Shown here piece by piece: positions 29,899-43,718 of a DNA stretch of 64,000 nt (its first letter is position 1; the number at the start of each line of letters is the position of its first letter). Below the pieces are notes generated by a model. That model was not told where the DNA came from, searched no databases, and saw only the letters and a list, made by a program, of their open reading frames with translations. The stretch covers positions 186,001 to 250,000 of the forward strand of contig NZ_AP018817.1 of NCBI RefSeq assembly GCF_024349785.1, written 5' to 3'. The stretch is from Sphingomonas bisphenolicum. Lineage in GTDB: Bacteria > Pseudomonadota > Alphaproteobacteria > Sphingomonadales > Sphingomonadaceae. Position numbers and translations under genes: made by a program.

Positions 29899-30651
29899 TC
29901 AGCCGCGCCCGACGAAGGGCATGTTGGTCGCCATCAGCGTCATGAACTGCACCGTCGCTTCTGGCGGCAGGCCGTCCATATAGGCGATCGCCTCGCCCAC
30001 CTGCGCCACGTCCATCACCGGTTCGGGCGCGCATTCGCCATTGGCCTGCGGCACGCCCGCGGACATGCGCTGGCCCATGGCGCTGCTGGCATTGCCGATG
30101 TCGATCTGGCTGCAACTGATGCCGAACGGCCGCCCGTCCAGCGCCGCCGATTTGGTAAGCCCGGTAATCGCATGTTTGCTGGCGGTATAGGCGATCGATC
30201 GGGGCCGCGGGCTATGGGCGGAAATCGACCCGTTGTTGATGATCCGGCCACCCTGCGGTTGTTGCGCCTTCATCGCACGGAAGGCCGCCTGCAGGCAGAG
30301 GAAGGCCCCGGTCAGGTTGGTGTCGATCACCCGCCGCCAGTCGCCCTCCGCCAGTTGGTCGATCGGCACGTCCACCACATTGACCCCGGCATTGTTGAAC
30401 AGCAGGTCGACCCGGCCGAACGCATCCACCGTGGCCTCGAACAAAGCCGCCACGCTGGCCGCATCGGTGACGTCGGTCGGGACCAGCACATGCGCCTCCC
30501 CGTCCCCATCCATCAAGGCGCGCGTCTCCGCCAGACTGTCGGCCCGTCGCCCGGCCAGCGCCAGGCGATAGCCGCGCCGGTCGAGCGCGATCGCCACGGC
30601 GCGGCCGATGCCGCTGCCCGCGCCGGTAATGACCGCGACGCGCCCGGTCAT
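29899..30651 (-). CDS. Short-chain dehydrogenase/reductase
   Basis: 250 residues of the classical SDR type: cofactor motif TGAGSGIG near residue 10, NNAG motif 'FNNAGVNV', catalytic Ser in NNGSISAHS and YxxxK in AYTASKHA. Substrate is not evident; the C-terminal '[24 protein letters not shown]' end is seen in SDRs of sugar or polyol pathways. The start codon overlaps the stop of the 2-hydroxyacid dehydrogenase gene by 4 bases, so it is the third, translationally coupled gene of an operon with gluconate 5-dehydrogenase. Confidence 0.9.
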
Positions 30652-31595
30652 GACAGGTTCAGCGCCGTGGGCGGCCGCCGTCCGGCCAGCAGCGCATCGA
30701 CATTGGCGAGCACCAGATCGGCCATGGCGATCCGCGTCTCCACCGTCGCGCTGGCGATATGCGGGGCCAGATGCGTCCGGTCGCTGGCGATCAGGCCGGC
30801 CGGGGCCGACGGCTCTTCCGCGAACACATCGAGCGCTGCGCCTGCGATGCCGCCGCTGTCCAGCGCCGCGATCAGCGCCGCCTCGTCCACCACCGATCCG
30901 CGCGCGACATTGACCAGATAGCCCTCGGCTCCCAGCGCCGTCAGGATGCCGGCGTCGATCAGGTTGCGGGTCGCCTCGGTCGCGGCGCAGGCCAGCACCA
31001 AAATGTCGCTCTCGCGCGCCAGCGCCGCCAGATCGGGTTCGAAGCGATAGGGCGCGTCCTTGGCCGACCGGCCATGATAGGCCACCGTGCCAAAGCCGCT
31101 CAGGCGATCGGCGATCGCCCGGCCGATCCGGCCCAGCCCGACGATGCCGAAGCGTCGGCCGCTGACCTTACGTCCCAGCGGGAACGCCTCCTCCATCCAG
31201 CGGCCATCGCGCACGAAGCGATCGGCCGCGGGCAGGCGGCGTAGCAGGCCGATCGTCAGGCCCACCGCCAGGTCGGCGACATCATCGGTCAACACATCGG
31301 GCGTGGTGCTGACATCGACGCCGCGCCCATTGGCGAAGGCCACATCGACCTTGTCATAGCCCACGCCGTTGATGGCGATCAGCTTGAGCGACGGCAATGC
31401 CGCGATCAGATCGTTGGAACAGCCCAGATGCCCGCCGGTCACCACCAGCGCCACCTTGCCAGCATTCGCCTCCAGCCAGCCAGTCCGCGCCGCATCGTCC
31501 ATCTCGAACCAGCGCAGCGACGGGCAGCGGGCGGCCAGTTCCGCTTCCAGATACTCGGACAGCGGGCAAAGCTGCAATGCGATCGTGTCGGCCAT
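30648..31595 (-). CDS. 2-hydroxyacid dehydrogenase, ketogluconate reductase-like
   Basis: 315 residues from ATG 31595, which has GAGGAG eight bases upstream; a GTG nine bases earlier overlaps that site and is unlikely. The Rossmann motif [12 protein letters not shown] starts near 152. Catalytic residues are R232 in [11 protein letters not shown]261 in FAEEP and H279 in LAPHIASAT. Enzymes of this branch (GhrB type) reduce glyoxylate, hydroxypyruvate or 2-ketogluconate with NAD(P)H. Between gluconate 5-dehydrogenase and another SDR, and facing idonate dehydrogenase, the best guess is 2-keto-D-gluconate reduction to gluconate. Confidence 0.88.
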
Positions 31596-31607
31596 GATAG
31601 TCACTCC

Positions 31608-32369
31608 TCAAATCACCGACAGGATGCCGCCATCGACATAGATGGTCTGGCCGTTCACGAAATTGGAGGCGGAGGAGGCAAGGAAGACGGCCGCGCCGTG
31701 CAGTTCCTCCAGCTTGCCCCACCGCCCGGCGGGCGTGCGCTGGCACAGCCAGGCGTCGAACACCGGATCTTCCACCAATGCCTTGTTGAGCGGCGTGTCG
31801 AAATAGCCCGGCCCGATCGCATTGACCTGCAATCCATGCCGCGCCCAGTCCGCGCACATGCCCTTGGTCAGATTCTTCACCGCGCCCTTGCTGGCGGTAT
31901 AGGGCGCGATGCCGGGACGGGCCAGTTCGCACTGGACGCTGCCGATATTGATGATCTTGCCGTGCCCGCGGGCGATCATGTGCGGCGCGACCGCCTTGCT
32001 GACATAATAGACGCTGTCCAGATTGGTCGCCATCAGGTCGCGCCAGTCATCATCATCGAATCTGTCGAGCGGCGCGCGGCGCTGGATGCCGGCATTGTTG
32101 ACGAGGATATCGATCGCTCCGACATCCCGCTCCACCGCGGCGATGCCGGCCTTGACCGCGGGTTGATCGGTGACGTCGAACAGGCTGGTCGCGACATCCA
32201 CGCCCTTGTCCCGCAGGATCACGGCTGCGGCATCCAGCGCATCCTGGCTGCGCCCGTTCAGGACGACACGCGCGCCCGCCTGGCCCAGCGCGTCGGCGAT
32301 CGTGAAACCGATGCCGCGCGCCGCGCCGGTCACCAGTGCGGTGCGGCCATCAAGACTGAACAAAGACAT
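31608..32369 (-). CDS. Gluconate 5-dehydrogenase-like SDR (IdnO/Gno type)
   Basis: 253 residues from ATG 32369 with GGAGG nine bases upstream. It has TGAARGIG for NAD(P), NNAG in LVNNAGIQRR, Ser in NIGSVQ and YTASKGA. The segment 'GMCADWARHGLQVNAIGPGYFDTPLNKALVED' (key residues G-P-G-Y-F...P-L-N) is characteristic of gluconate 5-dehydrogenases, which interconvert 5-keto-D-gluconate and D-gluconate. The divergent idonate dehydrogenase gene and the gluconokinase gene complete the known idonate route. Two GntR/IdnR-type operators lie in its upstream region. Confidence 0.88.
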   Translation of the reverse strand: MSLFSLDGRTALVTGAARGIGFTIADALGQAGARVVLNGRSQDALDAAAVILRDKGVDVATSLFDVTDQPAVKAGIAAVERDVGAIDILVNNAGIQRRAPLDRFDDDDWRDLMATNLDSVYYVSKAVAPHMIARGHGKIINIGSVQCELARPGIAPYTASKGAVKNLTKGMCADWARHGLQVNAIGPGYFDTPLNKALVEDPVFDAWLCQRTPAGRWGKLEELHGAAVFLASSASNFVNGQTIYVDGGILSVI

Positions 32370-32402
32370 AGTCACAAACCTCCATCACGCTTTTTGCCTA
32401 TT

Positions 32403-32418
32403 ACGTGACCGGTCACAT
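32403..32418. promoter_or_regulatory. GntR/IdnR-type operator, site 1
   Basis: ACGTGACCGGTCACAT contains the perfect palindrome GTGACCGGTCAC. It resembles the Escherichia coli GntR/IdnR operator form ATGTTACCGGTAACAT in length, central CCGG and outer bases. It is 33 bases upstream of the gluconate 5-dehydrogenase start, so it probably governs the leftward operon through the LacI-family regulator at 33941-35022. Confidence 0.7.
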
Positions 32419-32478
32419 TGCAATCTTGAAAATTGTCATATCGTCGCAAATATTGGATATTGCGATCATATGTGCCAA

Positions 32479-32494
32479 ATGATATCGGTCCCAT
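32479..32494. promoter_or_regulatory. GntR/IdnR-type operator, site 2
   Basis: ATGATATCGGTCCCAT ends 14 bases before the idonate dehydrogenase start and shares CGGT and CAT with site 1. It differs from site 4 (42569-42584) at only the first base and from site 3 (42380-42395) at two bases. The position suits repression of the rightward transcript. Confidence 0.68.
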
Positions 32495-32508
32495 ATAAGG
32501 AGAGCGTT

Positions 32509-33563
32509 ATGCTGGCTGCAATATGTCATGGGAAGAAGGATCTGCGGGTGGAGGCCCGCCCGGAGCGCACCCTGGCGCCTGACGAGGTACGCGTCGGCGT
32601 CGCCTATGGCGGCATCTGCGGATCGGACATGCACTATTATCATCGTGGTGCCGTGGGCGACTTCGCGGTGCGCGAACCGATGGCGTTAGGGCATGAGATT
32701 TCAGGCGTCGTCGTCGAAACCGGATCGGCCGTGACCCATGTCGCGCCGGGCATGAAGGCCGCGCTCGACCCCAGCCGCCCCTGCCTCACCTGCGACTATT
32801 GCCGCGCCGGCCGCATGAACCTCTGCACCGACATGGTCTTCCTGGGCAGCGCAGGTCGCTTCCCCCATGTCCAGGGCGGCTTCGCGCAGACGCTGATCCT
32901 GCGCGGCGACCAAATCATTCCCGTCCCGGCCGACGCCGACCTGCTCGCCTTGTCCGTCGCCGAGCCCCTGTCGGTCGGTCTCCACGCCGTGAACCGCGCC
33001 GGGCCGCTGCTGGGCAAGCGCGTCATCGTCACCGGCTCCGGCCCGATCGGCCTGCTGACCGCCCGCTGCGCCCTATATGCCGGCGCAATCGAAGTGGTCT
33101 GCACCGATGTCGAGGATGCCGCACTTGCCGTCGCGCGCGACCATATGGGCGCGACCGGCACGATCAACGTCGCGCGCGACCCGGACGACTCGGCACCTAT
33201 GCCAGCCCCGCCGGTCATTTCGACGTCGCCTTCGAAGCCTCCGGCGCGCCGTCGGCCTTGCTCTCGCTCTTCCCCATCGTCCGGCGCGGCGGCCGCATCG
33301 TCCAGGTCGGAATGCTGCCCCCCGGCACCGCGCCGATCCCGGTCAACCCGCTGCAATCGCGCGAGATCGAATTTGTCGGCGCCTTCCGCGCCAATGGCGA
33401 ATTCCGCCTCGCCGTCGACCTGATCGTCAGCGGCGCGATCGACGTCAGCCCGATCCTGTCGGGCACCTTCCCGCTCGACCGCTCGGTCGATGCCTTCGAA
33501 CAGGCCGGCGACCGCTCGCGCTTCGTCAAACTGCACATCGCCATCAACGAGGATATCCTGTGA
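32509..33563 (+). pseudogene. idnD: L-idonate 5-dehydrogenase-like zinc alcohol dehydrogenase, frameshifted
   Basis: The frame from ATG 32509 encodes a medium-chain dehydrogenase with zinc ligands C37 (GGICGSDMHYY), H62-E63 (GHEISG) and structural-zinc Cys 92, 95, 98 and 106, then the cofactor motif TGSGPIGLL. After about residue 227 (ARDPDD) homology moves to another frame: 'YASPAGHFDVAFEASG' to the C-terminus HIAINEDIL, stop at 33561-33563. One base is missing near 33189-33191, where GACGACTCGGC would read D-D-L-G if a C were restored. IdnD oxidises L-idonate to 5-ketogluconate. As written, the protein would lose its C-terminal third; a sequencing error in a C-run is the main alternative. 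Confidence 0.82.
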
Positions 33564-33895
33564 TCACACGCACCGCCATTTTCGAGGGCACGATCAAGCC
33601 GGGTTTCGAGGACCGTTTCCGTGAGGACGTCCGCACCCGCCTCGCCCCGCTCTGGGGCCAGTTCCCCCATGGCAGCAACGTCCGCCTCTTCTTCGTGGAT
33701 CAGGTCGATGACGGCGCGCCGCCGATCGCGATGATGCAGCAGGTCGACTATCCCTCGCTCGCCGCGCTGGAGGAGGCGCTGGCCTCCCCCATCCGCACCC
33801 AGGCACGCGCCCTGACGCTGGAGCTGCTGGAGATGTTCGAGGGCCGCTTCTACCACGCCATCAGCGGCGGCAACGCAGTGGCCGCCACCGCCTGA
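33560..33895 (+). CDS. Small protein, probable dimeric alpha/beta-barrel (EthD/ABM-like) fold
   Basis: 111 residues from a GTG start that overlaps the idonate dehydrogenase stop (GTGA), so translation is coupled. The pattern 'RTAIFEGTIKPGFEDRFRED', 'VRLFFVDQVDD', 'PPIAMMQQVDYPSLAALEEALASP' (short blocks) alternates strand, helix, strand like small ferredoxin-like barrel proteins, with no signal peptide. Similar small proteins sit in sugar- and aromatic-catabolic operons as epimerases, mutarotases or accessory factors. I cannot name the family with certainty and infer only a catabolic accessory role. Confidence 0.65.
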   Translation: MITRTAIFEGTIKPGFEDRFREDVRTRLAPLWGQFPHGSNVRLFFVDQVDDGAPPIAMMQQVDYPSLAALEEALASPIRTQARALTLELLEMFEGRFYHAISGGNAVAATA

Positions 33896-33940
33896 CGCTG
33901 ATATGCGACACGGATAGCAGCCATCAGGAAAGCCCCGCTC

Positions 33941-35022
33941 ATGAGCCGTCCCCCCGCGATACCGCCGCCCCTGCCGAACCGAAACCCGGCCGGCGCGCGT
34001 CGCAGCGACCGACCATCCGCGACGTGTCGCGTCTGGCGGGCGTATCGCGCATGACGGTGTCGCGGGTGCTGAGCGATCCCGAACTGGTGCTGCCCACCAC
34101 GCGCGACAAGGTGCTCAAGGCGGTGGCGGACCTGGGCTATGTCCCCGACAAGACCGCCGGCAGCCTGTCGAGCCGCCGCACCGGCTTCATCGCGCTGATG
34201 CTGCCGACGCTGACCAACGCCAACTTCGCTGCGGTCGCCCACGGCCTGACCGAAGCGCTGCGGGAGGCCAATTATCACCTGCTGATCGCCTATACCGACT
34301 ATGACATGGCGGAAGAGGAGCGGCAGCTCCTCAACCTGCTCGCCCGCCGCCCCGAAGCGATCGTGCTGACCGGCGCCATGCACCGGCGCAATGCGTCGCG
34401 CATGTTGATGGCCGCCGACGTGCCGGTGGTGGAAATTGCCGACCTGCCAAGCCAGCCGATCGAACATGCGATCGGCTTTTCCAACTATCAGGTCGGCCGC
34501 ACCGCCGCGCGCTATCTGCTCGATCGCGGCTTCACCCGGATCGGCGCGATCGCCGCCTCGCCCGAAGGCGAAGTGACCGACCATCGCGGCGAAGAGCGTA
34601 TGCGCGGTTTCGAGGAAGAACTGCGCCTGGCCCGCCGTTCGACCGACGGCGTGCTGCGCCACGGCACCGCCCCGGTCAGCTTCCACCACGGCGCCGCCGC
34701 CTTCCGCGCGCTGGTCGAACGGCAGCCGGACATAGAGGCGATCTTCGCCGTGTCGGACCTGTCCGCCGTCGGCGCGGTGATGGAGGCGCAGCGGATGAAC
34801 CTGCGCATCCCCGACGATATTTCCATCATGGGTTTCGGCGATTTCGAGATCGGCCGGGAAATCAACCCGGCGCTCACCACCATCCATGTCGATTTCCACG
34901 CGCTGGGGCTGCGCACCGGCAAGATGCTGGTCGACCTGCTCGCCAGCGACGCCACCCCCGCCCCATCGACCCTCGATGTCGGCCTGCGCATCGTCGAGCG
35001 CGCTTCGGTAAAGGACAGATAA
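33941..35022 (+). CDS. LacI-family regulator, GntR/IdnR-like; N-terminal frame appears interrupted
   Basis: The DNA-binding domain reads PTIRDVSRLAGVSRMTVSRVL, followed by a full LacI ligand domain ('GFIALMLPTLTNANFAAVAHGL', 'FAVSDLSAVGAVMEAQR', 'ISIMGFGDFEIGREINPALTTI', key blocks), which is the GntR/gluconate type. The helix-turn-helix frame has no ATG; its only in-frame common start is GTG 34024, which lies inside helix 1. ATG 33941 is one base out of frame. Adding one C to the C-run at 33950-33955 would give MSRPPRDTAAPAEPKPGRR running into the domain. A -1 deletion or a sequencing error is therefore likely. If functional, it should bind the four operators at 32403, 32479, 42380 and 42569. 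Confidence 0.8.
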
Positions 35023-35023
35023 T

Positions 35024-35905
35024 ATGCAGCTTGCGGTCATCGGCGTGGGCGTGATGGGATCGGCGATCGCCGGTCGCCTGCTCGATAGCGGGGTCGGCCT
35101 CCGCCTCTACGACCGCGATCCCGTGCAGATGGCGCCCTTGGTCGCCCGCGGCGCCACCGCCGCCGCAAGCGCGCGCGATGCCGCCGCTCATGCCAGCCAT
35201 GTCATCATCAGCCTCAACAGCGCCGCCATCGTGGAACGGGCCATCTTCGGCCCCGATGGCGTCGCGCAAGCGGCGGACGCGGGCAAATTGCTGATCGACA
35301 TGTCCAGCATCGACGCAGACCGCACCGCCGCCCTGGCGCAACGCCTGCGCGACGAGACCGGCATGGGCTGGGTCGATGCCCCCCTGTCGGGCGGCGCACC
35401 CGCCGCCGCGCAGGGCAAGCTGACCCTCATGGTCGGCGGCGCGACGGAGGATGTCGATCGCGCCCGGCCGGTGCTGGACCTGCTGTCCGCCCACATAACC
35501 CGCTTCGGCGCGCCGGGCGCGGGCCAGACGGTCAAGCTCATCAACCAGATATTGTGCGCCAATTATTTCATGGCGGTGGCAGAAGCCGTCCGCTTTGCCG
35601 AGGCGCATGGCGTGGATGCCACCCTGATCCCCGCCGCGCTCGCCGGTGGCCGCGCCGACAGCCGTATCCTCCAGGAATATATGGCGAAAATGGCCCGGCG
35701 CGACTATTCGCCGACCGGCCGGATCGACAATATGCTCAAGGATCTGGAGACGGTGCAAGCTTCCGCGCTCGCCACCCGCACGCCGCTGCCCGTCACCTCG
35801 CTGATCGCCGATCTGCACCGCATGGCCGTCGCCGGCGGCCTCGGCCCGGCCGACAGCGTCGCCTATATGCGCCTGTTCGACATGGACGGCGAGCAGCCGG
35901 CATGA
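35024..35905 (+). CDS. 3-hydroxyisobutyrate dehydrogenase-family oxidoreductase
   Basis: 293 residues. The N-terminal dinucleotide motif GVGVMGSAIAGRLL is at 7-20, a substrate-loop 'DAPLSGGAPAAAQGKL' follows at 118-132, and catalytic K171 is in GQTVKLINQ. Known members are 3-hydroxyisobutyrate dehydrogenase, tartronate semialdehyde reductase and 6-phosphogluconate-like enzymes, all oxidising beta-hydroxy acids with NAD(P). It starts one base after the LacI stop and overlaps gluconokinase by 4 bases, so it belongs to the sugar-acid operon. Which hydroxy acid it uses is not shown. Confidence 0.9.
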   Translation: MQLAVIGVGVMGSAIAGRLLDSGVGLRLYDRDPVQMAPLVARGATAAASARDAAAHASHVIISLNSAAIVERAIFGPDGVAQAADAGKLLIDMSSIDADRTAALAQRLRDETGMGWVDAPLSGGAPAAAQGKLTLMVGGATEDVDRARPVLDLLSAHITRFGAPGAGQTVKLINQILCANYFMAVAEAVRFAEAHGVDATLIPAALAGGRADSRILQEYMAKMARRDYSPTGRIDNMLKDLETVQASALATRTPLPVTSLIADLHRMAVAGGLGPADSVAYMRLFDMDGEQPA

Positions 35906-36396
35906 CCCGCGCCGTCGTGGTGATGGGTGTGGCGGGCTGCGGCAAGTCCACTTTGGCGGAGGCGCTGGCGCAGCATCTGGGCTGGACCTTCGTGGAGGGC
36001 GACCTCTGCCACCCACCCGAAAATGTCGCCCGCATGACCGCCGGCATTCCGCTCGACGACGAAGCGCGCCAGCCCTTTCTGCGCAATGTCGCGACTGCCC
36101 TCACCGCCTCGCGGCAGGGCGCCGTCGCCTCCTGCTCCGCGCTCAAGCGCGACTATCGCGACCTGATCCGGCAGCAGGTGGGCGATGTGCTGTTCGCCCT
36201 GCCCCATCTGTCGCGCGCCGATCTGGAACGGCGCATGAGCCAGCGGCCCGCCCATTTCATGCCGACCTCCCTGCTCGACAGCCAGCTTGCCACGCTGGAG
36301 CCGCCCGGCCCGGACGAACGCGTGCTTGTCATCGACGGCAATCTGCCCGTCGCCGAGCAGGTCCGCCGGATCGCAGACGCGCTGCCCCCATCATAA
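35902..36396 (+). CDS. gntK: Gluconokinase (GntK/IdnK type)
   Basis: 164 residues, normal for GntK. The P-loop GVAGCGKST is at 9-17, followed by 'FVEGDLCHPPENVARMTAGIPLDDEARQPFL' (key residues G-D...H-P...N...K/M...G-x-P-L-x-D) and the lid 'CSALKRDYRDLIR' and 'RRMSQRPAHFMPTSLLDSQLATLE' blocks typical of gluconokinase. It phosphorylates D-gluconate to 6-phosphogluconate, the entry to the Entner-Doudoroff pathway. ATG 35902 overlaps the upstream stop (ATGA). With gluconate 5-dehydrogenase and idonate dehydrogenase nearby it completes a route from idonate or ketogluconate to 6-phosphogluconate. Confidence 0.93.
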   Translation: MTRAVVVMGVAGCGKSTLAEALAQHLGWTFVEGDLCHPPENVARMTAGIPLDDEARQPFLRNVATALTASRQGAVASCSALKRDYRDLIRQQVGDVLFALPHLSRADLERRMSQRPAHFMPTSLLDSQLATLEPPGPDERVLVIDGNLPVAEQVRRIADALPPS

Positions 36397-36436
36397 AGAG
36401 GCTGCCGTCGCCAGCCCGCAAGACGAGAGGAAGACC

Positions 36437-37786
36437 ATGGCCCTGATGCCCCAGCCGGACATCCCAGTTCCCGATACTGCTGATGTCCGCCCATGGCCGA
36501 ACCCGCGCCGCGCCTGGACCGTCGCGCTTTTGCTGTCGCTCGCCTCGATCGCGTCGCAGTTCGACCGCGTCGTCCTCAACCTGACCGTCGAACCGGTAAA
36601 GGCGGAATTCGGCCTGGACGACACCAGCTTCGCGCTGTTGCAGGGCGTGGCGTTCGGCATCTTCTACACGTTGGGCGCAGTGCCGCTCGGCCGCCTGGCC
36701 GACCGCTATGAACGGCGCATCGTGCTGGGCATCAGCCTCTTCTTCTTCAGCCTCGCCTCCATGGCGTCGGGTTTGTCCCGCAACTTCTCGCAACTTTTCC
36801 TCTCGCGCGTCGCGGTCGGCTGCGGCGAAGCCAGCGTCACGCCCAGCGGCCTTTCGCTGCTCAGCGACCTGTTCCCGCCTGAAAAGCTCGGCCGCGCCGT
36901 CAGCATCTTTTTCCTGAGCGCCCCGTTCGGCATCGGCCTCGCCTTCATGGCCGGGGGCAAGCTGCTCCAGTCGCTCACCGAACGCTGGCACGGCACCGGC
37001 CTGCCCTTTGGCCTGGAACCCTGGCAGGCCGCCTTCCTGATCGTCGGCGCACCCGGCCTGCTGCTCGCACCACTGCTGCTCTTCATGAAGGAGCCGGAAC
37101 GGCGTGGGCCCGGCGGCACGACGCCGCTCACGATAGCCGAAGTGCTGGGCGTCATCCGCGCCCGCCGCCGCGCACTCACCCTGATGTTCGCCGGCTTCTC
37201 GATGGTGACGGTGGTGAACTTCGCGTACAATGTCTGGACGCCGGCGCTGTTCGCCCGCGTCTATGGCTGGACCCCGGCGCAGGTCGGCATCGGCTTCGGC
37301 CTCATCATGATGATCTGCGGCACGGGCGGCACCTATTTCGCCGGTTGGCTCAGCGACCGGCTGACCCGCGCCGGTCATGTCGACGCCCATCTGCGCGTCG
37401 CAGCCTTTGGCTTCCTCGCCTGCGGCATCTTCGGCACGCTCGCCCCATTGATGCCCAACGCCTGGGCCGCGCTGGCGCTGATCGCGCCGGCGATGTTCCT
37501 CAGCTGCATGCCCGTCCCCTGCGCCGGCACCGCGCTGCAACTCATCCTCCCCAACCGCGCGCGGGGCCAAGTGACGGCGCTCTACATCATGGTGATCTCG
37601 CTGGTCGGGATCGGCATCGGCCCGGTGGTGATCGGCTTCATGACCGACCATCTCTTCACCGCCCCCACCGACATCCGCTATTCCCTCGCCATCGTCGTCG
37701 GCTGCGCCGCCCCGATCATGTGCGTGCTGCTGTTGCTGGCGCTGAAACCGTACCGGGCGCTAAGGCTGGCGGGGATCGAAGGATAA
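36437..37786 (+). CDS. MFS transporter (Spinster-like)
   Basis: 449 residues from ATG 36437 (GAGAGGAAG upstream). About 12 transmembrane helices; the loop 2-3 motif is 'GRLADRYERRIVLG', helix 4 carries 'SRVAVGCGEASVTPSG', and the second half has 'GWLSDRLTRAG'. The G-x-G-E-A pattern in helix 4 is typical of Spinster-type carriers that are common in sphingomonad catabolic clusters, where they are assumed to import sugar acids or other catabolic substrates. Placed 41 bases after gluconokinase in the same direction, it likely serves the same pathway. Direction and substrate are inferred. Confidence 0.88.
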   Translation: MALMPQPDIPVPDTADVRPWPNPRRAWTVALLLSLASIASQFDRVVLNLTVEPVKAEFGLDDTSFALLQGVAFGIFYTLGAVPLGRLADRYERRIVLGISLFFFSLASMASGLSRNFSQLFLSRVAVGCGEASVTPSGLSLLSDLFPPEKLGRAVSIFFLSAPFGIGLAFMAGGKLLQSLTERWHGTGLPFGLEPWQAAFLIVGAPGLLLAPLLLFMKEPERRGPGGTTPLTIAEVLGVIRARRRALTLMFAGFSMVTVVNFAYNVWTPALFARVYGWTPAQVGIGFGLIMMICGTGGTYFAGWLSDRLTRAGHVDAHLRVAAFGFLACGIFGTLAPLMPNAWAALALIAPAMFLSCMPVPCAGTALQLILPNRARGQVTALYIMVISLVGIGIGPVVIGFMTDHLFTAPTDIRYSLAIVVGCAAPIMCVLLLLALKPYRALRLAGIEG

Positions 37787-37812
37787 GGCGCTTACATCAG
37801 CGCCAGAACGCA

Positions 37813-37905
37813 CCGTCACCCCGGACTTGTTTCAGGGTCCATTTTTCCGAATTGAGCGAAGCACTCGGCGGCACGATGGATGCTGAAGCAAGTTCAGCAT
37901 GACGA
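37813..37905. repeat. Extragenic palindromic (REP-like) element
   Basis: The stretch opens with GTCACCCCGGACTTG and closes with a hairpin, TGCTGAA (37881-37887) and TTCAGCA (37893-37899) around GCAAG, followed by TGAC that mirrors the opening GTCA. This composition matches repeats I know from intergenic regions of sphingomonads. It follows the MFS gene and may mark the operon end. Confidence 0.6.
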
Positions 37906-37963
37906 TTGGAGGTGAAAGATATCGGCTATTTATATAACTCCGATCTGACGCTAAGAATCTTGC

Positions 37964-38281
37964 ATGACGATCATGCCAGCACTGCAAGAGTGGAATCTGC
38001 AATCACTGACTGCTGTGCAAGCCATGCTTGGCCTGCCATCACCCAACCTTCGACGAGTCACACTTGATCATAACGGTCAATTATGGCTGATATCGTTCGT
38101 GCTTGCCCACGAAGATGCCGAAGATCGAGAAGAAATCGAAGACTTCGGAACGGAATGGGATGCGCTACAAAGCAGCTTCGAGCAGCTTGAGATTCGCATT
38201 CTGATTACGTCAGAGCCTCTCCCGTGGCCCGCCCCTCCCGCTCGTGTAATATATCAGCGTCGAGAGGCAGTCTCCAAATAG
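37964..38281 (+). CDS. Small acidic hypothetical protein in an AT-rich pocket
   Basis: 105 residues from ATG 37964, with no signal peptide or membrane segment. The composition is acidic (AHEDAEDREEIEDFGTEWD around residues 48-66) with a C-terminal beta-like stretch 'IRILITSEPLPWPAPPARVIYQRRE'. I do not recognise the family; size, charge and pattern recall immunity proteins of polymorphic toxins, but no toxin gene is adjacent, so this is only an idea. Base composition is clearly lower in GC than the flanks, and the gene is bracketed by a REP element and a gene-free stretch, which suggests acquisition by transfer. Confidence 0.55.
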   Translation: MTIMPALQEWNLQSLTAVQAMLGLPSPNLRRVTLDHNGQLWLISFVLAHEDAEDREEIEDFGTEWDALQSSFEQLEIRILITSEPLPWPAPPARVIYQRREAVSK

Positions 38282-38467
38282 CCATGATGAACGACCCCAC
38301 CCGAAATCCTGTCCTACCTCCACCCAATCTGCTATCCTGAATCCCGCTCTTTCACACCGTCCGCGCCCCACACCCGCCACCACATAAAATGTCCAACATT
38401 TGTTCCAAAATGCCGCATTCAGCGGGAAATGTGCGAAGTTAAGCGCCGACCTTCCTACGACGCGCAC

Positions 38468-38502
38468 AAAAAAAGCCCGGTCGCGTGCAGTCGACCGGGC
38501 TT
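38468..38502 (-). terminator. Rho-independent terminator of the lyase gene
   Basis: On the minus strand AAGCCCGGTCG (38502-38492) pairs perfectly with CGACCGGGCTT (38483-38473) around an 8-base loop, followed by a run of seven T residues (38474-38468). It begins 22 bases after the stop codon of the isocitrate lyase/PEP mutase-family gene and is the clearest intrinsic terminator in the window. Confidence 0.92.
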
Positions 38503-38523
38503 CCAGGGGAGAGGGTTCAAGCC

Positions 38524-39468
38524 TTAAAGGCGGTCGTCGATCGAGGAGCGGACGAAGCCGTCTGGGAAGCTTTCGACCTGATTGCCCACAATCGTATATT
38601 CCTTGGCGCGGCCCGAAAAACGGCCTTCCAGCTCCATATAGCTTTGCGGATCGAACAAAGGCGTCGCGCTCATGCCCATGATGCCGGTCGCGTCCACCTT
38701 CTCGCAGGTATAGTCGCAGCCCTGCTGAGCGAAGTTCCTGATGCCATGTTCCAGCATCCCGTCCATCGCAGCTTTCAGCGTATAATGCATCGTCATCATG
38801 TTGAAGCCGAGCGGATAGATGTCATCCACCGTCACCGCGGGCTTGCCGTTGATGTTGCGCACGTCGGGGAACATCTTCCACCCCGGCACCCGCGCCGAAA
38901 CATATTGGGCATGTTCCAGCGTACCGATCTTGACCACGGTGGTCATCTTGGCGCCCAGTTCATGCGCCAGCCGCATCCGCTCGCAGCCTTCGTCCATCTG
39001 CGTTTCCGGGTCGGCATTGGTCCGCGCGATCAGGAAGCAGTTGGTGCCCTCCAGCGCCGCGAGCGCCGCCCGCACCTTTTCCAGATAGCGTTCGCGCGGC
39101 AGCAGGCCGGTGGATTCCTCCATATCGTCGGCATCCTCCAGCTGGAGCGCGGTCGCCCCCGCCATCGCCATGCGCCGGGCGCTGCGATAGACGGCCAGCG
39201 GCCCGCCAAAGCCATCCTCGATATCGGCGGCCAGCGGAATAGGGGAGGTCTGACTGATGCGGCTGGTGATCCATTCCACATCGGTCAGATTGCTGAAGCC
39301 ATAGTCGATCACGCCGTTCATCGCGATCGACACTTCGCCGCCCGACAGCATCATCGCTTCGAAGCCGACCATCTCCACCGCCCGCGCCGACGCACAGTCG
39401 TAGACGCAGGGGGCGACGATGCACTTGTCGCTGGTTTCGAGCAGTTGTTGCAGTGTCTTCTTTGCCAT
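38524..39468 (-). CDS. Isocitrate lyase/PEP mutase superfamily enzyme
   Basis: 314 residues, forming the expected TIM barrel: 'IVAPCVYDCASARAVEMVGFEAMMLSGG', the metal site 'LAADIEDGFGG', 'LQLEDADD' and 'CFLIARTNADP' (short blocks). The isocitrate-lyase KKCGH loop is missing, so it is not isocitrate lyase. Relatives include oxaloacetate decarboxylase, 2-methylisocitrate lyase, dimethylmalate lyase and PEP mutase, all making or breaking C-C or C-P bonds next to a 2-oxo acid. It is 29 bases downstream of a TonB receptor whose promoter carries a GntR/IdnR-type operator, so it likely acts on a product of the same sugar-acid pathway. Confidence 0.87.
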   Translation of the reverse strand: MAKKTLQQLLETSDKCIVAPCVYDCASARAVEMVGFEAMMLSGGEVSIAMNGVIDYGFSNLTDVEWITSRISQTSPIPLAADIEDGFGGPLAVYRSARRMAMAGATALQLEDADDMEESTGLLPRERYLEKVRAALAALEGTNCFLIARTNADPETQMDEGCERMRLAHELGAKMTTVVKIGTLEHAQYVSARVPGWKMFPDVRNINGKPAVTVDDIYPLGFNMMTMHYTLKAAMDGMLEHGIRNFAQQGCDYTCEKVDATGIMGMSATPLFDPQSYMELEGRFSGRAKEYTIVGNQVESFPDGFVRSSIDDRL

Positions 39469-39497
39469 GTGCTTGCCAGTTTCCTTTGTTGAACCAA

Positions 39498-42335
39498 TTA
39501 CATGCGGACGCGCGCGCCGACCTTGAAGTAGCGGCCGATCGGATCGAAATAGACCTGGTTGGTGGCCCCCTGCGCGCTGGCGGCGAGCGGCGGGTCCTTG
39601 TCGAGCAGGTTGTTGACCACGCCGAACAGTTCGAACTGGTCGTTCACCTTCACCGTCGCGCCAAGGTCGAGGTAGAAGCGGCCGGCGACGCGGTTATTGT
39701 TCACGCTGTTGGGCAGGCCAGGCGCATAGCCGTCATCCTGCGGCCCCACCAGCGTCGTGTCGAACACCCCCTTGGGGATATATTTGCCGTGCAGGTTCAG
39801 CGCGACGCTGCCCAGATCCCACAGCACCGTGCCGTCCACGATCCAGTCGGGCACGCCCGTGGTGGTGCCGGGGCGATAGCCGGTCTGGCCGGTACGATCG
39901 ATGCCGCCAATTTCCAGCTTCAGATAACGGGTGGCGAGCAGGCGGAAATCGAGGCTGCCGAGCTTGCCGACATCGGTGCGATAGCTGGCCTCGATATCGA
40001 TGCCGCGATTGCGCACCTGGCTGACATTCTGCAGCACGTCGCTGACGCTGGTGAGCGTGCCCGACGCATCGCGCTGGACGAAGTTGCACAGTGCCGTCTG
40101 CCCGCCCGCGCAGCGATCGACCACCACCTGCGCGCCCAGCGTCGAAATCGCACCCTGCAGGTCGATGTCATAATAGTCGACCGAGAATCGGAAGTTGCGC
40201 AAAAAGCCCTTGGGCGCCAGCACCACGCCGGCTGTCCAGGTATCGGCCTTTTCCGGCGACAATTGCTGGTTGGCGCCCGAGAAGCTGTTGACCTGAATCT
40301 GCGCGCCATTGTTCAGCGGATCGACGATCGTCGTGCGACCCAGCGTCACCGGCCCGAACAATTCGGTCAGGTTGGGCGCCCGAATGTCGCGCGACCGGGT
40401 AACGCGGAAACGCACTTCCTCGATCGGCGCATAGATGCCGCCCAGTTTCCAGGTGGTGGCATTGACCGTCGTGGTGTCCAGGCCAGGGCTGGAGCGGCGA
40501 TAATGGGTGCGGCGGACCGCGCCGTTCAGTTCCAGCGTCTGGGCGAAAGGCGCGTCCTTCAGGATCGGTGCCTGCGCCTCCAGATAGGCTTCGGCGACGC
40601 GGATGCTGCCATTGACCGCCTTGCCGTTGAACGACCAGAAGGCGTTGGCGGTGGACAGGGCGTCGGCGGCGCCGACCGCCTTGTCGCTGCGATATTCGCC
40701 ACCCGCCGCGATCGAGAAATCGCCACCCGGCAGCGCGAACAGCGATCCGTTGATGTTGGCAGCGACCACATGCTCGGTCGTGTCAGTGGTCTGATAGCCC
40801 GACGGCGCGATATAGGCGGCGGCCTCCGGCGAGATATTGCCGGAGCCGAACAGGTTGATCGGCACGCAGCTGGGATCGTCATTGGCACTGCTGGCGTCGG
40901 CATTGATGCCGCACACCACCTGGCCGTTCACATTGACCGCATTGGCCGCGTTGGTGACCCGCGACCCGACGACGTTGCCGCTATAATCCTGGCGGAACTT
41001 GTTGCGGCCATATTGATAATAGGCGTCCCAGCGCCAGTTGTCGCTGATCTTGCCTTCCAGCGACAGCACCGCCCGATAGGTCTTGTTGTCGCTATGATTG
41101 ACCGATCCGCCCAGATCCATCAGCGCGCGGCCTAGGGTGAAGGCCGTGATGGCATTCGCGTCCATGATCGCCGCGACGCCGTCGGGCAGATAGGCGTTGT
41201 TGCGCTGGATCGTCTGCGTCGTGCGGGCGACCGATCCGATCACCATGCCCTGCGACCGAGCATAGGACAGGTCGACACTGGCCTTCAATGCATCGGAAAA
41301 TTCATAGGATGCCTGGCTGTAGCCGACGAAACGCTTGACCGGCGGGATCAGGAGAATGCCGTCCAGAAAACCGTTGCGCACCGACTCCTCGCCGCCCTTG
41401 GTGAACAGCGGCGACGGATTGGTGCCATAGATGGTGCCGAAATCATAAGCGTGCGTCGTGCCATCCGGGTTGAACGCCAGCCCGCGCAACGGCCCGGAAT
41501 TGGCGACGATCAGTCCGCCGGACGAGATGGTGCCGGTGCCGGCCGGGCCGCCGCGGATGCTGGCGGGCAGGCCGCCAGATCCCGCCGGGCTGTTGCCGAT
41601 CAACTGCTCGCGCGGACACCAGTCGCGGGTGTAGCAATCGCCCATTCCGTCCGACCGGTCATATTCGCCCGCGATCATGAAATGACCCTTTTCGTCCGCG
41701 AACTTCGTGCCCCAGGCGAGTTGCGCATTCTGCCCGGCATAATCGCCGCGGTCGGATATGCCCGCCTGGATCGATCCTTTGAGGCCGGTCAGGTTGCGGT
41801 CGAGGATGAAGTTGACGACACCCGCCACCGCGTCCGAGCCATAGGCGGCCGACGCGCCGCCGGTCACGACTTCGGTGCGCGACACCAGCGAACTGGGGAT
41901 CAAATTGACGTCGATGGTGCCCTGCGTGGTCGACGGCACGAAACGCTTGCCGTCGAGCAGCACCAGCGTCCGGGTCGCGCCAAGGCCGCGCAGGTCGAGT
42001 ACGCGCGCGCCGATATTGCCGCCCACCGCCTGCTGCGTCGCCGGCGTCACCAGCGGACGGAAGGAGGGCAGTTCGTTGAGCGCGTCGCCGACATTGGTGA
42101 TGGCGCGCTGCTCCAGCCGCTCACCGCCGACTACGGTAACGGGCGTCGGCGCGTTGAAGCCCGATCGGGCGATGCGCGATCCGGTGACGACGATGTCGGC
42201 AGCCGCCGCGTCATCGACCTCCGTCGGCTGGGGCGGCGGCGCGGCGTCCTGCGCCGACGCGACATTGGCCAAGGCGCACAGCGCCGCACTGCCCAGAAGC
42301 CCGTATTTGAAGCGAGACACCAAATGAAGATTCAT
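39498..42335 (-). CDS. TonB-dependent outer-membrane receptor of the sugar-acid regulon
   Basis: 945 residues from ATG 42335 with GGGAGG upstream. A signal peptide ends ASAQ near residue 29; the TonB-box-like DIVVTGSR is at 47-54. The plug has 'LDLRGLGATRTLVLLDGKRF' and 'VVTGGASAAYGSDAVAGVVNFIL', and the barrel ends 'YFKVGARVRM'. An operator (42380-42395) lies 45 bases before its start and is nearly identical to those in the idonate/gluconate promoter, which implies control by the same LacI regulator. TonB uptake of a sugar acid or its larger precursor is therefore suggested. Confidence 0.95.
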   Translation of the reverse strand: MNLHLVSRFKYGLLGSAALCALANVASAQDAAPPPQPTEVDDAAAADIVVTGSRIARSGFNAPTPVTVVGGERLEQRAITNVGDALNELPSFRPLVTPATQQAVGGNIGARVLDLRGLGATRTLVLLDGKRFVPSTTQGTIDVNLIPSSLVSRTEVVTGGASAAYGSDAVAGVVNFILDRNLTGLKGSIQAGISDRGDYAGQNAQLAWGTKFADEKGHFMIAGEYDRSDGMGDCYTRDWCPREQLIGNSPAGSGGLPASIRGGPAGTGTISSGGLIVANSGPLRGLAFNPDGTTHAYDFGTIYGTNPSPLFTKGGEESVRNGFLDGILLIPPVKRFVGYSQASYEFSDALKASVDLSYARSQGMVIGSVARTTQTIQRNNAYLPDGVAAIMDANAITAFTLGRALMDLGGSVNHSDNKTYRAVLSLEGKISDNWRWDAYYQYGRNKFRQDYSGNVVGSRVTNAANAVNVNGQVVCGINADASSANDDPSCVPINLFGSGNISPEAAAYIAPSGYQTTDTTEHVVAANINGSLFALPGGDFSIAAGGEYRSDKAVGAADALSTANAFWSFNGKAVNGSIRVAEAYLEAQAPILKDAPFAQTLELNGAVRRTHYRRSSPGLDTTTVNATTWKLGGIYAPIEEVRFRVTRSRDIRAPNLTELFGPVTLGRTTIVDPLNNGAQIQVNSFSGANQQLSPEKADTWTAGVVLAPKGFLRNFRFSVDYYDIDLQGAISTLGAQVVVDRCAGGQTALCNFVQRDASGTLTSVSDVLQNVSQVRNRGIDIEASYRTDVGKLGSLDFRLLATRYLKLEIGGIDRTGQTGYRPGTTTGVPDWIVDGTVLWDLGSVALNLHGKYIPKGVFDTTLVGPQDDGYAPGLPNSVNNNRVAGRFYLDLGATVKVNDQFELFGVVNNLLDKDPPLAASAQGATNQVYFDPIGRYFKVGARVRM

Positions 42336-42379
42336 ATTTTCATCCTCCCAACACTCTCGGATCTGCCATCCGCTTTATC

Positions 42380-42395
42380 GTGATATCGGTCACAT
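42380..42395. promoter_or_regulatory. GntR/IdnR-type operator, site 3
   Basis: GTGATATCGGTCACAT, with outer arms TGA/TCA around ATATCGG, lies 45 bases upstream of the TonB receptor start. It matches site 2 at 14 of 16 bases and keeps the GGTCACAT right half of site 1. Confidence 0.68.
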
Positions 42396-42568
42396 TAGCG
42401 AATATGTTTATGCAAGGCAATCCCCTTGGCGCCAAAGAATGACATTCACCCTGCCCGCAAAAATATGGCTAGTAAGCAGAATATTTGGCTTTTTATCGCC
42501 ATGTTCTACGAGGCCACCTGGGAAAATCCGTAGAGGATGCATCAAGCGCTTGGCCATCGATGCAGCAT

Positions 42569-42584
42569 TTGATATCGGTCCCAT
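42569..42584. promoter_or_regulatory. GntR/IdnR-type operator, site 4
   Basis: TTGATATCGGTCCCAT lies 30 bases before the alcohol dehydrogenase start. It is identical to site 2 over its last 15 bases even though the two sites are 10 kb apart, which argues against chance. Confidence 0.68.
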
Positions 42585-42614: not shown

Positions 42615-43718
42615 ATGGACATCCGCGCCGCCGTCGTTGAAGCATCGAACCGCCCCATGGTCATCCGGTCGCTGACCATCGAACCACCCCGCGCGGGCGA
42701 AATATTGGTGCGGCTGGTCGCCACCGGCGTGTGCCATACCGACGCGACCATGTGGCAGCAGGGCGTGCCGGTACCCCTGCCGGTCGTACTGGGGCATGAG
42801 GGCGCCGGCATCGTCGAACAGGTGGGCGATGGCGTGACCGACATCCGCCCCGGCGATCCTGTGGTGATGAGCTATAATAGCTGTGGAAGCTGTCCAACTT
42901 GCTGTTCGGACCACAGCAGCTATTGCCATGAATTTTTCCCGCGCAATTTCTTCGGCACCCGTCCCGATGGCAGCGCCGCCCTCGCCACGAGCGACGGCAG
43001 CCCGGTCTTCGCCAACATCTTCGGCCAATCTTCCTTCGCGACCCACGCGATCTGTCACGCCCGCAACACGGTAGTCGTGCCTGAGGGTTTCGACCTGCGG
43101 ATCGCCGGCCCGCTGGGCTGCGGCATATTGACCGGCGCAGGCGCGGTGATGAACGCGCTTCAGGTCCGTCCGGGGCAGAGCGTGGTCGTGCTGGGCGCGG
43201 GGTCGGTCGGCCTATCCGCGATCATGGCGGCCAAGGCGGTGGGTGCGACGACCATCGTCGCCGTGGACTTGAACCCGGAGCGGCTGGCGCTGGCGGCGGA
43301 ACTGGGCGCGACCCTGACGATCGACGGCCGCACCGACGATCCCGTCGCGCGCGTGCTGGAAACCGTGCCGGGCGGCGTCGATCATGCGCTCGACTGCACC
43401 GGCCTGCCCGCGGTGATCCAGCAGGGGATCGCGATGCTGGGCGTGCGCGGCACTTGCGGCATTGTCGGCGCAGCGGCACCCGGTACGCTGTTTCAGGCCG
43501 ACGTCTCGCATGTGATGAGCGGCGGGCGTACGATCCGGGGCATTGTCGAAGGCGACGCCGACCCCAAGCGGTTCATCCCGCAGCTTATAGCCTTGCACCA
43601 GGCCGGGCGGTTCCCATTCGACCGGCTGATCCGTTTCTATCCGTTCGACGCGATCAACGACGCCTTCCACGACTCCGAAAGCGGCGTCGCGATCAAGCCC
43701 GTGCTTCTGTTCGAATGA
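42615..43718 (+). CDS. Zinc-dependent alcohol dehydrogenase (aryl/benzyl-alcohol type)
   Basis: 367 residues of the class III-like medium-chain family. Catalytic zinc ligands are C40 (GVCHTD) and H61-E62 (GHEGAG); structural-zinc Cys are at 90, 93, 96 or 97, and 104. The cofactor motif VLGAGSVGLSA follows. The pattern 'MDIRAAVVEASNRPMVIRSL' and 'GTRPDGSAAL' is that of NAD-dependent aryl-alcohol or formaldehyde-like dehydrogenases. It diverges from the TonB receptor, and both share a promoter region with two LacI-type operators, so it should be induced with the sugar-acid genes. A sugar alcohol or released aglycone alcohol could be the substrate; this is not determinable here. Confidence 0.9.
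   Translation: MDIRAAVVEASNRPMVIRSLTIEPPRAGEILVRLVATGVCHTDATMWQQGVPVPLPVVLGHEGAGIVEQVGDGVTDIRPGDPVVMSYNSCGSCPTCCSDHSSYCHEFFPRNFFGTRPDGSAALATSDGSPVFANIFGQSSFATHAICHARNTVVVPEGFDLRIAGPLGCGILTGAGAVMNALQVRPGQSVVVLGAGSVGLSAIMAAKAVGATTIVAVDLNPERLALAAELGATLTIDGRTDDPVARVLETVPGGVDHALDCTGLPAVIQQGIAMLGVRGTCGIVGAAAPGTLFQADVSHVMSGGRTIRGIVEGDADPKRFIPQLIALHQAGRFPFDRLIRFYPFDAINDAFHDSESGVAIKPVLLFE

Follow-up and report, generated by a model that had tools for sequence, protein, structure and literature searches.

A probable sugar-acid regulon of two divergent promoters, with a TonB receptor gene among its members, in Sphingomonas bisphenolicum

Four short, similar sites lie at two divergent promoters, 10 kb apart, in a 64,000-nucleotide stretch of the Sphingomonas bisphenolicum genome (RefSeq assembly GCF_024349785.1, contig NZ_AP018817.1, positions 186,001 to 250,000 of the forward strand; hereafter the window, with positions counted from its first letter). 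As judged from the sequence, these two promoters very probably form one shared regulon, in which the sites (S1 to S4) would serve as operators of a LacI-family repressor encoded between them, at 33941-35022. The original prediction, made from the letters of the window, had proposed a single regulon over both promoters and had placed a TonB-dependent receptor, an enzyme of the phosphoenolpyruvate (PEP) mutase family and an alcohol dehydrogenase with sugar-acid genes. Both proposals are supported by phylogenetic footprinting, in which the motif was transferred from one promoter to the others, by gene linkage and by the distribution of motif copies across genomes.

The four 16-mers were found in the window where the original prediction had put them, each 14 to 44 bp upstream of a divergent start codon, i.e., one site per transcription unit for four start codons. 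S1 (32403-32418, ACGTGACCGGTCACAT) is near-palindromic and lies 27 bp upstream of the first possible start of a gluconate 5-dehydrogenase (Ga5DH)-like gene, and S2 (32479-32494, ATGATATCGGTCCCAT) precedes the start of an idonate dehydrogenase gene by 14 bp. At the other divergent promoter, the start codons downstream of S3 (42380-42395, GTGATATCGGTCACAT) and S4 (42569-42584, TTGATATCGGTCCCAT), at distances of 44 and 30 bp, are those of the TonB receptor and alcohol dehydrogenase genes, respectively. The shared CGGT and CAT end noted originally hold, with CGGTC and the CAT end common to all four sites, and the reported identity of S2 and S4 over 15 bases corresponds to their last 15. S2, S3 and S4 have TGATATCGGTC[A/C]CAT in common, and the right half CGGTCACAT is common to S1 and S3. 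All four sites are centred on CG, the usual form of LacI-family operators according to section 9 of a LacI regulon survey (PMC4052901, seen in part). Their symmetry ranges from four to seven of eight half-site positions (7 in S1, a nearly perfect palindrome, 5 in S2 and 4 each in S3 and S4, which are partly palindromic). When the 64 kb of the window were scanned with a matrix made from S1 to S4, these ranked as the top four, which is a circular result. DNA looping between paired sites was considered and rejected, since the spacing of the sites varies between loci (76 and 189 bp in the window, 78 and 144 bp in locus L044 and 133 bp in L083) and helical phasing is thus not conserved.

Scanning the whole genome (5,209,012 bases in six contigs), the check that the original prediction had proposed, showed that the sites do not occur at random frequency. 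The motif TGATATCGGTCNCA has three perfect matches, which are S2, S3 and S4, and the S1 core GTGACCGGTCACAT has a single perfect match, S1 itself. The five one-mismatch matches to the S2-S4 motif were all intragenic and hence gave no further regulon members in this genome; genes around scan matches, and in locus L048, were called with a simple GC-frame picker. Among the two-mismatch matches listed, 24 of 35 were inspected, and 22 of these were intragenic and two were at gene edges (L018 and L024). A looser pattern, CGGTAAC-N6-CAT, gave seven matches in the genome, none of them at S1 to S4, and was not informative. A scan of 94 genus genomes for exact copies of the 15-mer TGATATCGGTCMCAT gave 23, spread over eight genomes, each of which has the cluster or part of it. 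Seven of these eight genomes contain a match to the LacI query (E up to 1e-60), and the eighth (G350), which is 60% complete, matches the PEP-mutase query. No exact copy was found in any of the 83 genus genomes that match neither the LacI nor the PEP-mutase query.

Two further places came up in these scans (L, G and C label loci, genomes and contigs, with G000 being the genome analysed here). An S1-like sequence, ATGACCGGTCACAT, at G000:C2:591789-591802 (L117, L119) precedes a cytochrome P450 gene by ~108 bp and falls within a doubtful 90-aa open reading frame; it may be a further target or the site of another regulator. The other two S1-like places in this genome, besides S1, are intragenic. 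In G222 (L095, C2:437375), a TGATATCGGTATCA site stands upstream of an open reading frame with a borderline match to the TonB receptor plug domain (23.7 bits, cut-off 23.9).

Conservation of the sites was assessed in 41 loci obtained by a search with the LacI protein, to which the proteins of the window were aligned and which were then scanned; relatives were located through short exact peptides, and distant ones were therefore missed. A matrix was made from the best idonate-dehydrogenase-promoter site alone in 22 of the 42 loci (the window and the 41), comprising nine distinct sites, three of them weak, and was then used on the other promoters. L054 and L060-L078 were left out of the matrix set beforehand because their motifs or lineages differ, S1 was sought with two symmetric idealised 16-mers, and controls consisted of 200 mononucleotide shuffles each, so that p cannot fall below 0.005. 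The idonate dehydrogenase promoters themselves carry matches of 15.9-22.7 bits in 19 of 22 loci. With the matrix that had been made from these promoters only, TonB receptor promoters reached a score of at least 22 in 13 of 14 loci, or in 12 of 13 if the window is not counted, and a site was present at the alcohol dehydrogenase promoter in 7 of 9. The receptor and alcohol dehydrogenase genes share one intergenic region in the Sphingobium and Sphingomonas loci, and the best receptor match counted in the Sphingobium loci is the site adjoining the alcohol dehydrogenase gene, with a second site also present. Promoters of the major facilitator superfamily (MFS) transporter gene have at least 14.9 bits in 7 of 21 loci, one shuffle outscoring the real site in L052, and the promoter of the PEP-mutase-family gene has a site in 2 of 18 (L049, L056), this gene being located behind the receptor gene in 14 of the other 16. 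The control promoter, that of the 2-hydroxyacid dehydrogenase gene, which lies behind the Ga5DH-like gene in the window operon, has a site in none of 22 loci.

The individual sites are also retained base for base. The S2 16-mer is found identically at the idonate dehydrogenase promoter of L038-L045, L052, L058 and L059, and it is kept without change in nine loci of Sphingobium, Sphingomonas and Aurantiacibacter in which the intergenic DNA shares only 51-73% identity with that of the window; the close sisters L038 and L058, with a promoter 91% identical to the window, keep it as well. S1 is identical in L038 and L058 and occurs as variants elsewhere, such as AAGTGACCGGTCACAT (L040, L041) and TAGTGATCGGTCACAT (L044, L045). 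S3 is identical in L039-L041, L058, L111 and L113, and S4 in L039-L041, L058 and L113, with a two-base variant in L111.

The two halves were also found linked in other arrangements. On plasmid pSFD01 of Sphingopyxis sp. FD7 (242,612 bp, typed mobilizable by PLSDB), they lie on either side of one strong site, ATGTTATCGGTCACAT (29.1 bits), with a weaker 15.6-bit place 109 bp away. On one side of this site are the genes for idonate dehydrogenase, the small protein, LacI, an NAD oxidoreductase, gluconokinase and the MFS transporter; on the other are those for the TonB receptor, the PEP-mutase-family enzyme, a short-chain dehydrogenase/reductase (SDR), a 2-hydroxyacid dehydrogenase, another SDR and the alcohol dehydrogenase. 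In L046 and L047, the receptor, PEP-mutase-family, Ga5DH and 2-hydroxyacid dehydrogenase genes follow one another in this order on one strand. The draft genome G367 has one half on each of two contigs, with sites at both, and in G199 lacI is on contig C2 (in a position that agrees with L043, Sphingomonas baiyangensis) and the receptor and PEP-mutase-family genes are on C1, with three exact motif copies at these two promoters. The LacI protein (E up to 1e-60) and the PEP-mutase-family protein were each found in 4 of 296 genomes of the order, the same four, our own genome included, and in 10 and 11 of 94 genus genomes, respectively, the eleventh being the incomplete G350 (Fisher 3.2e-9 for the order and 1.2e-12 for the genus, a test that ignores phylogeny and counts our own genome in both samples).

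In the stretches fetched, the loci of Rhodobacterales (L060-L077) and Paraburkholderia (L054) carry most of the core genes without a receptor or PEP-mutase-family gene, so that these two genes seem to have been added to the core pathway. A site of at least 17.5 bits, in a more symmetric form, is present in 14 of the 18 Rhodobacterales loci and in L054.

Two neighbouring blocks were seen alongside these clusters. On pSFD01 (L120:19693-27995), a second block adjoins with an arabinofuranosidase-domain protein, a ribokinase and another TonB receptor, and this block has no site of at least 14 bits. In Sphingobium sp. AP50 (L042:8101-13622), the cluster is followed downstream by a second LacI-family gene, a TonB receptor gene and a sulfatase gene, probably another carbohydrate locus.

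The candidate regulator (33941-35022, forward strand, open frame 34024-35022) has the domain make-up of the LacI family, with a helix-turn-helix domain (PF00356) and a periplasmic-binding-protein-like sensor domain (PF13377, PF00532). Its description as GntR-like in the original prediction holds in that the nearest models are GntR and IdnR; the protein nonetheless stays under both curated cut-offs, with 264 bits to GntR NF052440 (280 for the intact orthologue of L058; cut-off 400), 147 (154) of 433 to the E. coli-type GntR model PRK14987 and 188 (195) of 500 to IdnR, and is therefore better called GntR-like than GntR. In the window, the start codon used by the relatives is out of frame with the rest of lacI (33941-34024), and the idonate dehydrogenase gene idnD has a frame break about two thirds along, at about 33150-33220. 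The 5' end of lacI is intact in six relatives, and both lacI and idnD are intact in close relatives (L038, L040, L058). The two breaks, within ~1 kb of each other, may be assembly errors or recent decay; if genuine, they may leave this strain with an impaired regulator.

Under the model we propose, each site would head one transcription unit. The S1 unit, on the reverse strand, would consist of the Ga5DH-like gene (31608-32375), the gene of a 2-hydroxyacid dehydrogenase (30648-31604) and an SDR gene (29899-30651). The Ga5DH-like protein is itself an SDR resembling gluconate 5-dehydrogenase/5-ketogluconate reductase; its best solved relative is gluconate 5-dehydrogenase 5u9p (345 bits), and it scores below the NCBIfam cut-offs (400 of 413 bits for PRK07523 and 329 of 408 for gluconate 5-dehydrogenase PRK08085). 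The second enzyme is a D-isomer 2-hydroxyacid dehydrogenase (PF02826/PF00389), which its context makes a candidate 2-ketogulonate/2-ketogluconate reductase, and the third is a further SDR oxidoreductase (PF00106), with the same order in pSFD01. The S2 unit, on the forward strand, would start with the frame-broken L-idonate 5-dehydrogenase-like gene idnD (32509-33563, in two overlapping frames), whose intact counterpart in L058 matches L-idonate 5-dehydrogenase best (322 bits, cut-off 469; solved relative 6dkh). It would continue with a gene (33560-33895) for a 111-aa protein of no confident family (a weak EthD-like match to TIGR02118, E 0.02, 15.5 of 30.5 bits, and no listed match to any Pfam family up to E 10), lacI, a gene (35024-35905) for a beta-hydroxyacid dehydrogenase that is tartronate-semialdehyde-reductase-like (TIGR01505, 209 of 341 bits), the gene of a gluconokinase of GntK/IdnK type (35902-36396; TIGR01313, 166 bits, above the cut-off of 114) and that of the MFS transporter (36437-37786; PF07690), which is best like sugar-acid transporters (TIGR00893, 124 of 395 bits). 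The S3 unit, again on the reverse strand, would hold the genes for the TonB receptor (39498-42335; PF00593 and PF07715) and the PEP-mutase-family enzyme (38524-39468; PF13714), and the S4 unit, on the forward strand, that for a zinc alcohol dehydrogenase (42615-43718; PF08240/PF00107) of class III/NDMA-ADH-like type (TIGR03989, 231 of 440 bits).

With lacI lying within the S2 unit, the repressor would regulate itself. Without inducer, it would block all four promoters, until a sugar-acid intermediate frees it from the DNA; the receptor and the MFS protein would import the sugar acid, and the dehydrogenases and gluconokinase would convert it through gluconate to 6-phosphogluconate. The route that best fits the predicted specificities, and for which this enzyme set would suffice, leads from 2-keto-L-gulonate through L-idonate, 5-keto-D-gluconate and gluconate to 6-phosphogluconate, an order of steps established for E. 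coli. We are moderately confident, somewhat beyond even chances, that the substrate is one of the first three of these acids, i.e., 2-keto-L-gulonate, L-idonate or 5-keto-D-gluconate.

Several observations weigh against a shared regulon of this kind or against its assignment to such acids. The left half of S1 is unlike those of S2 to S4, making S1 a different sub-type; the idonate dehydrogenase promoter has a weak match of 7.8 bits in L049, L056 and L057; an alcohol dehydrogenase gene (52% identical) lacks a site in L050 and L051; and the receptor promoter of L048 has none either (7.6), with the receptor located there behind the MFS gene, upstream of which a site is present. Three genomes (G314, G345 and G346) carry both the lacI and the PEP-mutase-family genes, in more divergent sequences, and no exact copy of the 15-mer. 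In addition, lacI and idnD are both frame-broken in the present assembly, and the missed GntR and IdnR cut-offs mean that the effector cannot be read from the name of the family. A 20-bit place inside the PEP-mutase-family gene of G199 shows that the matrix yields false matches as well. Given that LacI-like palindromes are short and that the sites were picked by eye, chance or codon-driven similarity was an obvious concern; however, the absence of sites from all 22 control promoters, the confinement of the genus copies to cluster genomes and the uniqueness of the motif in its own genome led us to reject this explanation, to which we give practically no weight after the genome scan, the footprinting and the genus scan. 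It is also conceivable that two different LacI-family proteins with similar operators each serve one promoter, in which case a shared site would not amount to co-regulation. LacI-family operators do resemble one another, and other LacI-family genes lie near some of the relatives (L042 8101-9189; L054 19152-20033), but exact motif copies occur, among the 94 genus genomes, only where the cluster or part of it is present, the two halves on pSFD01 have one strong site between them, and the LacI and PEP-mutase-family genes co-occur, all of which make two regulators highly improbable.

Alternatively, the regulon may be real with a different ligand. A quinate/shikimate-like or other hydroxy acid might be the natural inducer in place of an idonate-type sugar acid, given that MFS transporters and dehydrogenases are not substrate-specific by sequence and that in Sphingobium jiangsuense (L048:17834-19993) a gene like that of dehydroshikimate dehydratase (QuiC) follows the MFS, receptor and PEP-mutase-family genes on the same strand after a 67-bp gap. 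However, this gene, which reaches 639 of a 1200-bit cut-off, was seen in one locus with no systematic search having been made, and the gluconokinase, together with the likeness to L-idonate and gluconate 5-dehydrogenases, points to gluconate chemistry; we regard such an inducer as unlikely, if worth bearing in mind. A little less likely still, in our view, is the uptake of a larger sugar-acid conjugate or oligomer, suggested by the original prediction, with the PEP-mutase-family enzyme and the alcohol dehydrogenase helping to dismantle it. Large ligands are common among TonB receptors, an alcohol moiety could be a substrate of the alcohol dehydrogenase, and in Paraburkholderia L054 the gene ahead of lacI is gluconolactonase-like (SMP-30). 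The receptor and PEP-mutase-family genes also extend a core that Rhodobacterales and Paraburkholderia carry alone in the fetched stretches. The conjugate nevertheless finds no support in the gene content, since the site-bearing operons of the window yielded no recognisable glycosidase, esterase or polysaccharide lyase and none is named in the (incomplete) gene table of the pSFD01 cluster, and TonB receptors for small sugars that go with a LacI-type repressor are known (PMC1790865, seen in part). We favor a single LacI-type repressor at both promoters and an idonate-type sugar acid as the probable substrate.

The PEP-mutase-family enzyme is an unusual member of this set. Its median identity of 83% over 17 loci is the highest of the genes found in more than eight loci (that of the alcohol dehydrogenase, found in 8, is 87%), and by both sequence and fold it is nearest to the PEP mutase/isocitrate lyase superfamily, without the cysteine of the KRCGH-type loop. 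That catalytic cysteine is needed in the known lyases of the superfamily, such as methylisocitrate lyase and dimethylmalate lyase. The nearest solved relatives are 2,3-dimethylmalate lyase, petal death protein and oxaloacetate acetylhydrolase (94, 94 and 89 bits). Compared with the KKCGH loop of petal death protein, the loop lacks five residues, and none of the 14 sequences aligned has a cysteine there; the cysteine position falls in a gap against petal death protein 1zlp and on a serine, invariant in the 14, against 2,3-dimethylmalate lyase 3fa3. Cysteine-dependent lyase chemistry is therefore unlikely. A structure prediction from 14 close sequences was of middling quality (mean pLDDT, the predicted local distance difference test score, 69.8, with residues 45-59, 229-238 and 253-314 under 50), and a fold search with this model again returned the sequence relatives at ranks 1-4, with root-mean-square deviations of about 7.5-11 Å among the matches listed. 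This strongly conserved protein possibly has an undescribed activity. A bolder and tentative idea, to which we give less than even chances, is that it is a new enzyme of sugar-acid catabolism that works without this cysteine, is linked to a single LacI-type repressor and a single TonB receptor, and opens an imported sugar acid or derivative beyond the classical idonate/gluconate route, and that the whole unit travels among the Sphingomonadales as a module, also by way of a plasmid. Relatives of ~42% identity are found on seven Agrobacterium vitis/Allorhizobium plasmid records from grapevine; in the one whose neighbourhood was viewed (NC_011981.1, 475985-476917), the gene adjoins UbiD/UbiX and ABC transporter genes and the surroundings are unrelated.

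Among known systems, the locus combines features of several. The permease of the E. coli GntII (idonate) system is of GntP type, unlike the MFS transporter here. The E. coli idonate genes are idnD, idnO, idnK, idnT and idnR (PMC4052901), and the locus resembles that system in the likeness of its enzymes to idonate 5-dehydrogenase, 5-ketogluconate reductase/gluconate 5-dehydrogenase and gluconokinase, in its GntR/IdnR-like LacI protein and in the CG-centred 16-bp operator. It differs from GntII in having an extra 2-hydroxyacid dehydrogenase, a TonB receptor, a PEP-mutase-family enzyme, an alcohol dehydrogenase, a beta-hydroxyacid dehydrogenase, a second SDR and a small protein, and in a regulator that stays below the GntR and IdnR cut-offs. 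The grouping of a TonB receptor, an inner-membrane MFS transporter, catabolic enzymes and a LacI-type repressor is shared with the carbohydrate utilization (CUT) loci, of which the sux locus of Xanthomonas, whose receptor imports sucrose under the LacI/GalR-type SuxR, is described in PMC1790865 (seen in part). In contrast to sux, the present locus would involve sugar-acid chemistry, would have its regulon divided between two divergent promoters at a distance of 10 kb, and includes a PEP-mutase-family enzyme. A third parallel is the fungal D-glucuronate pathway, with 2-keto-L-gulonate reductase, L-idonate 5-dehydrogenase and 5-ketogluconate reductase (PMC4870679, PMC5306355 and PMC5814732), in that the 2-hydroxyacid dehydrogenase, idonate dehydrogenase and Ga5DH of this bacterium, if their predicted activities hold, would give the same order of reactions; the parts of these papers that were available do not mention a shared regulator or a TonB receptor for fungi. 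The system may thus be described as a GntR/IdnR-like sugar-acid regulon of the CUT-locus type with an added PEP-mutase-family enzyme. No description of this regulon was met in the titles or abstract openings of open-licence papers, which is no proof of its absence from print, and the main text of the LacI regulon survey, as far as it was available, has no match for "Sphingomon" or "TonB".

In conclusion, what began as a match of four short sites made by eye has become a regulon that can be tested. To our knowledge, most TonB receptors of sphingomonads are unassigned, and for the receptor studied here the regulon predicts a class of function, the uptake of sugar acids. It would also tie a strongly conserved PEP-mutase-family enzyme to a pathway that can be defined, within a module that is rare and whose parts occur together.

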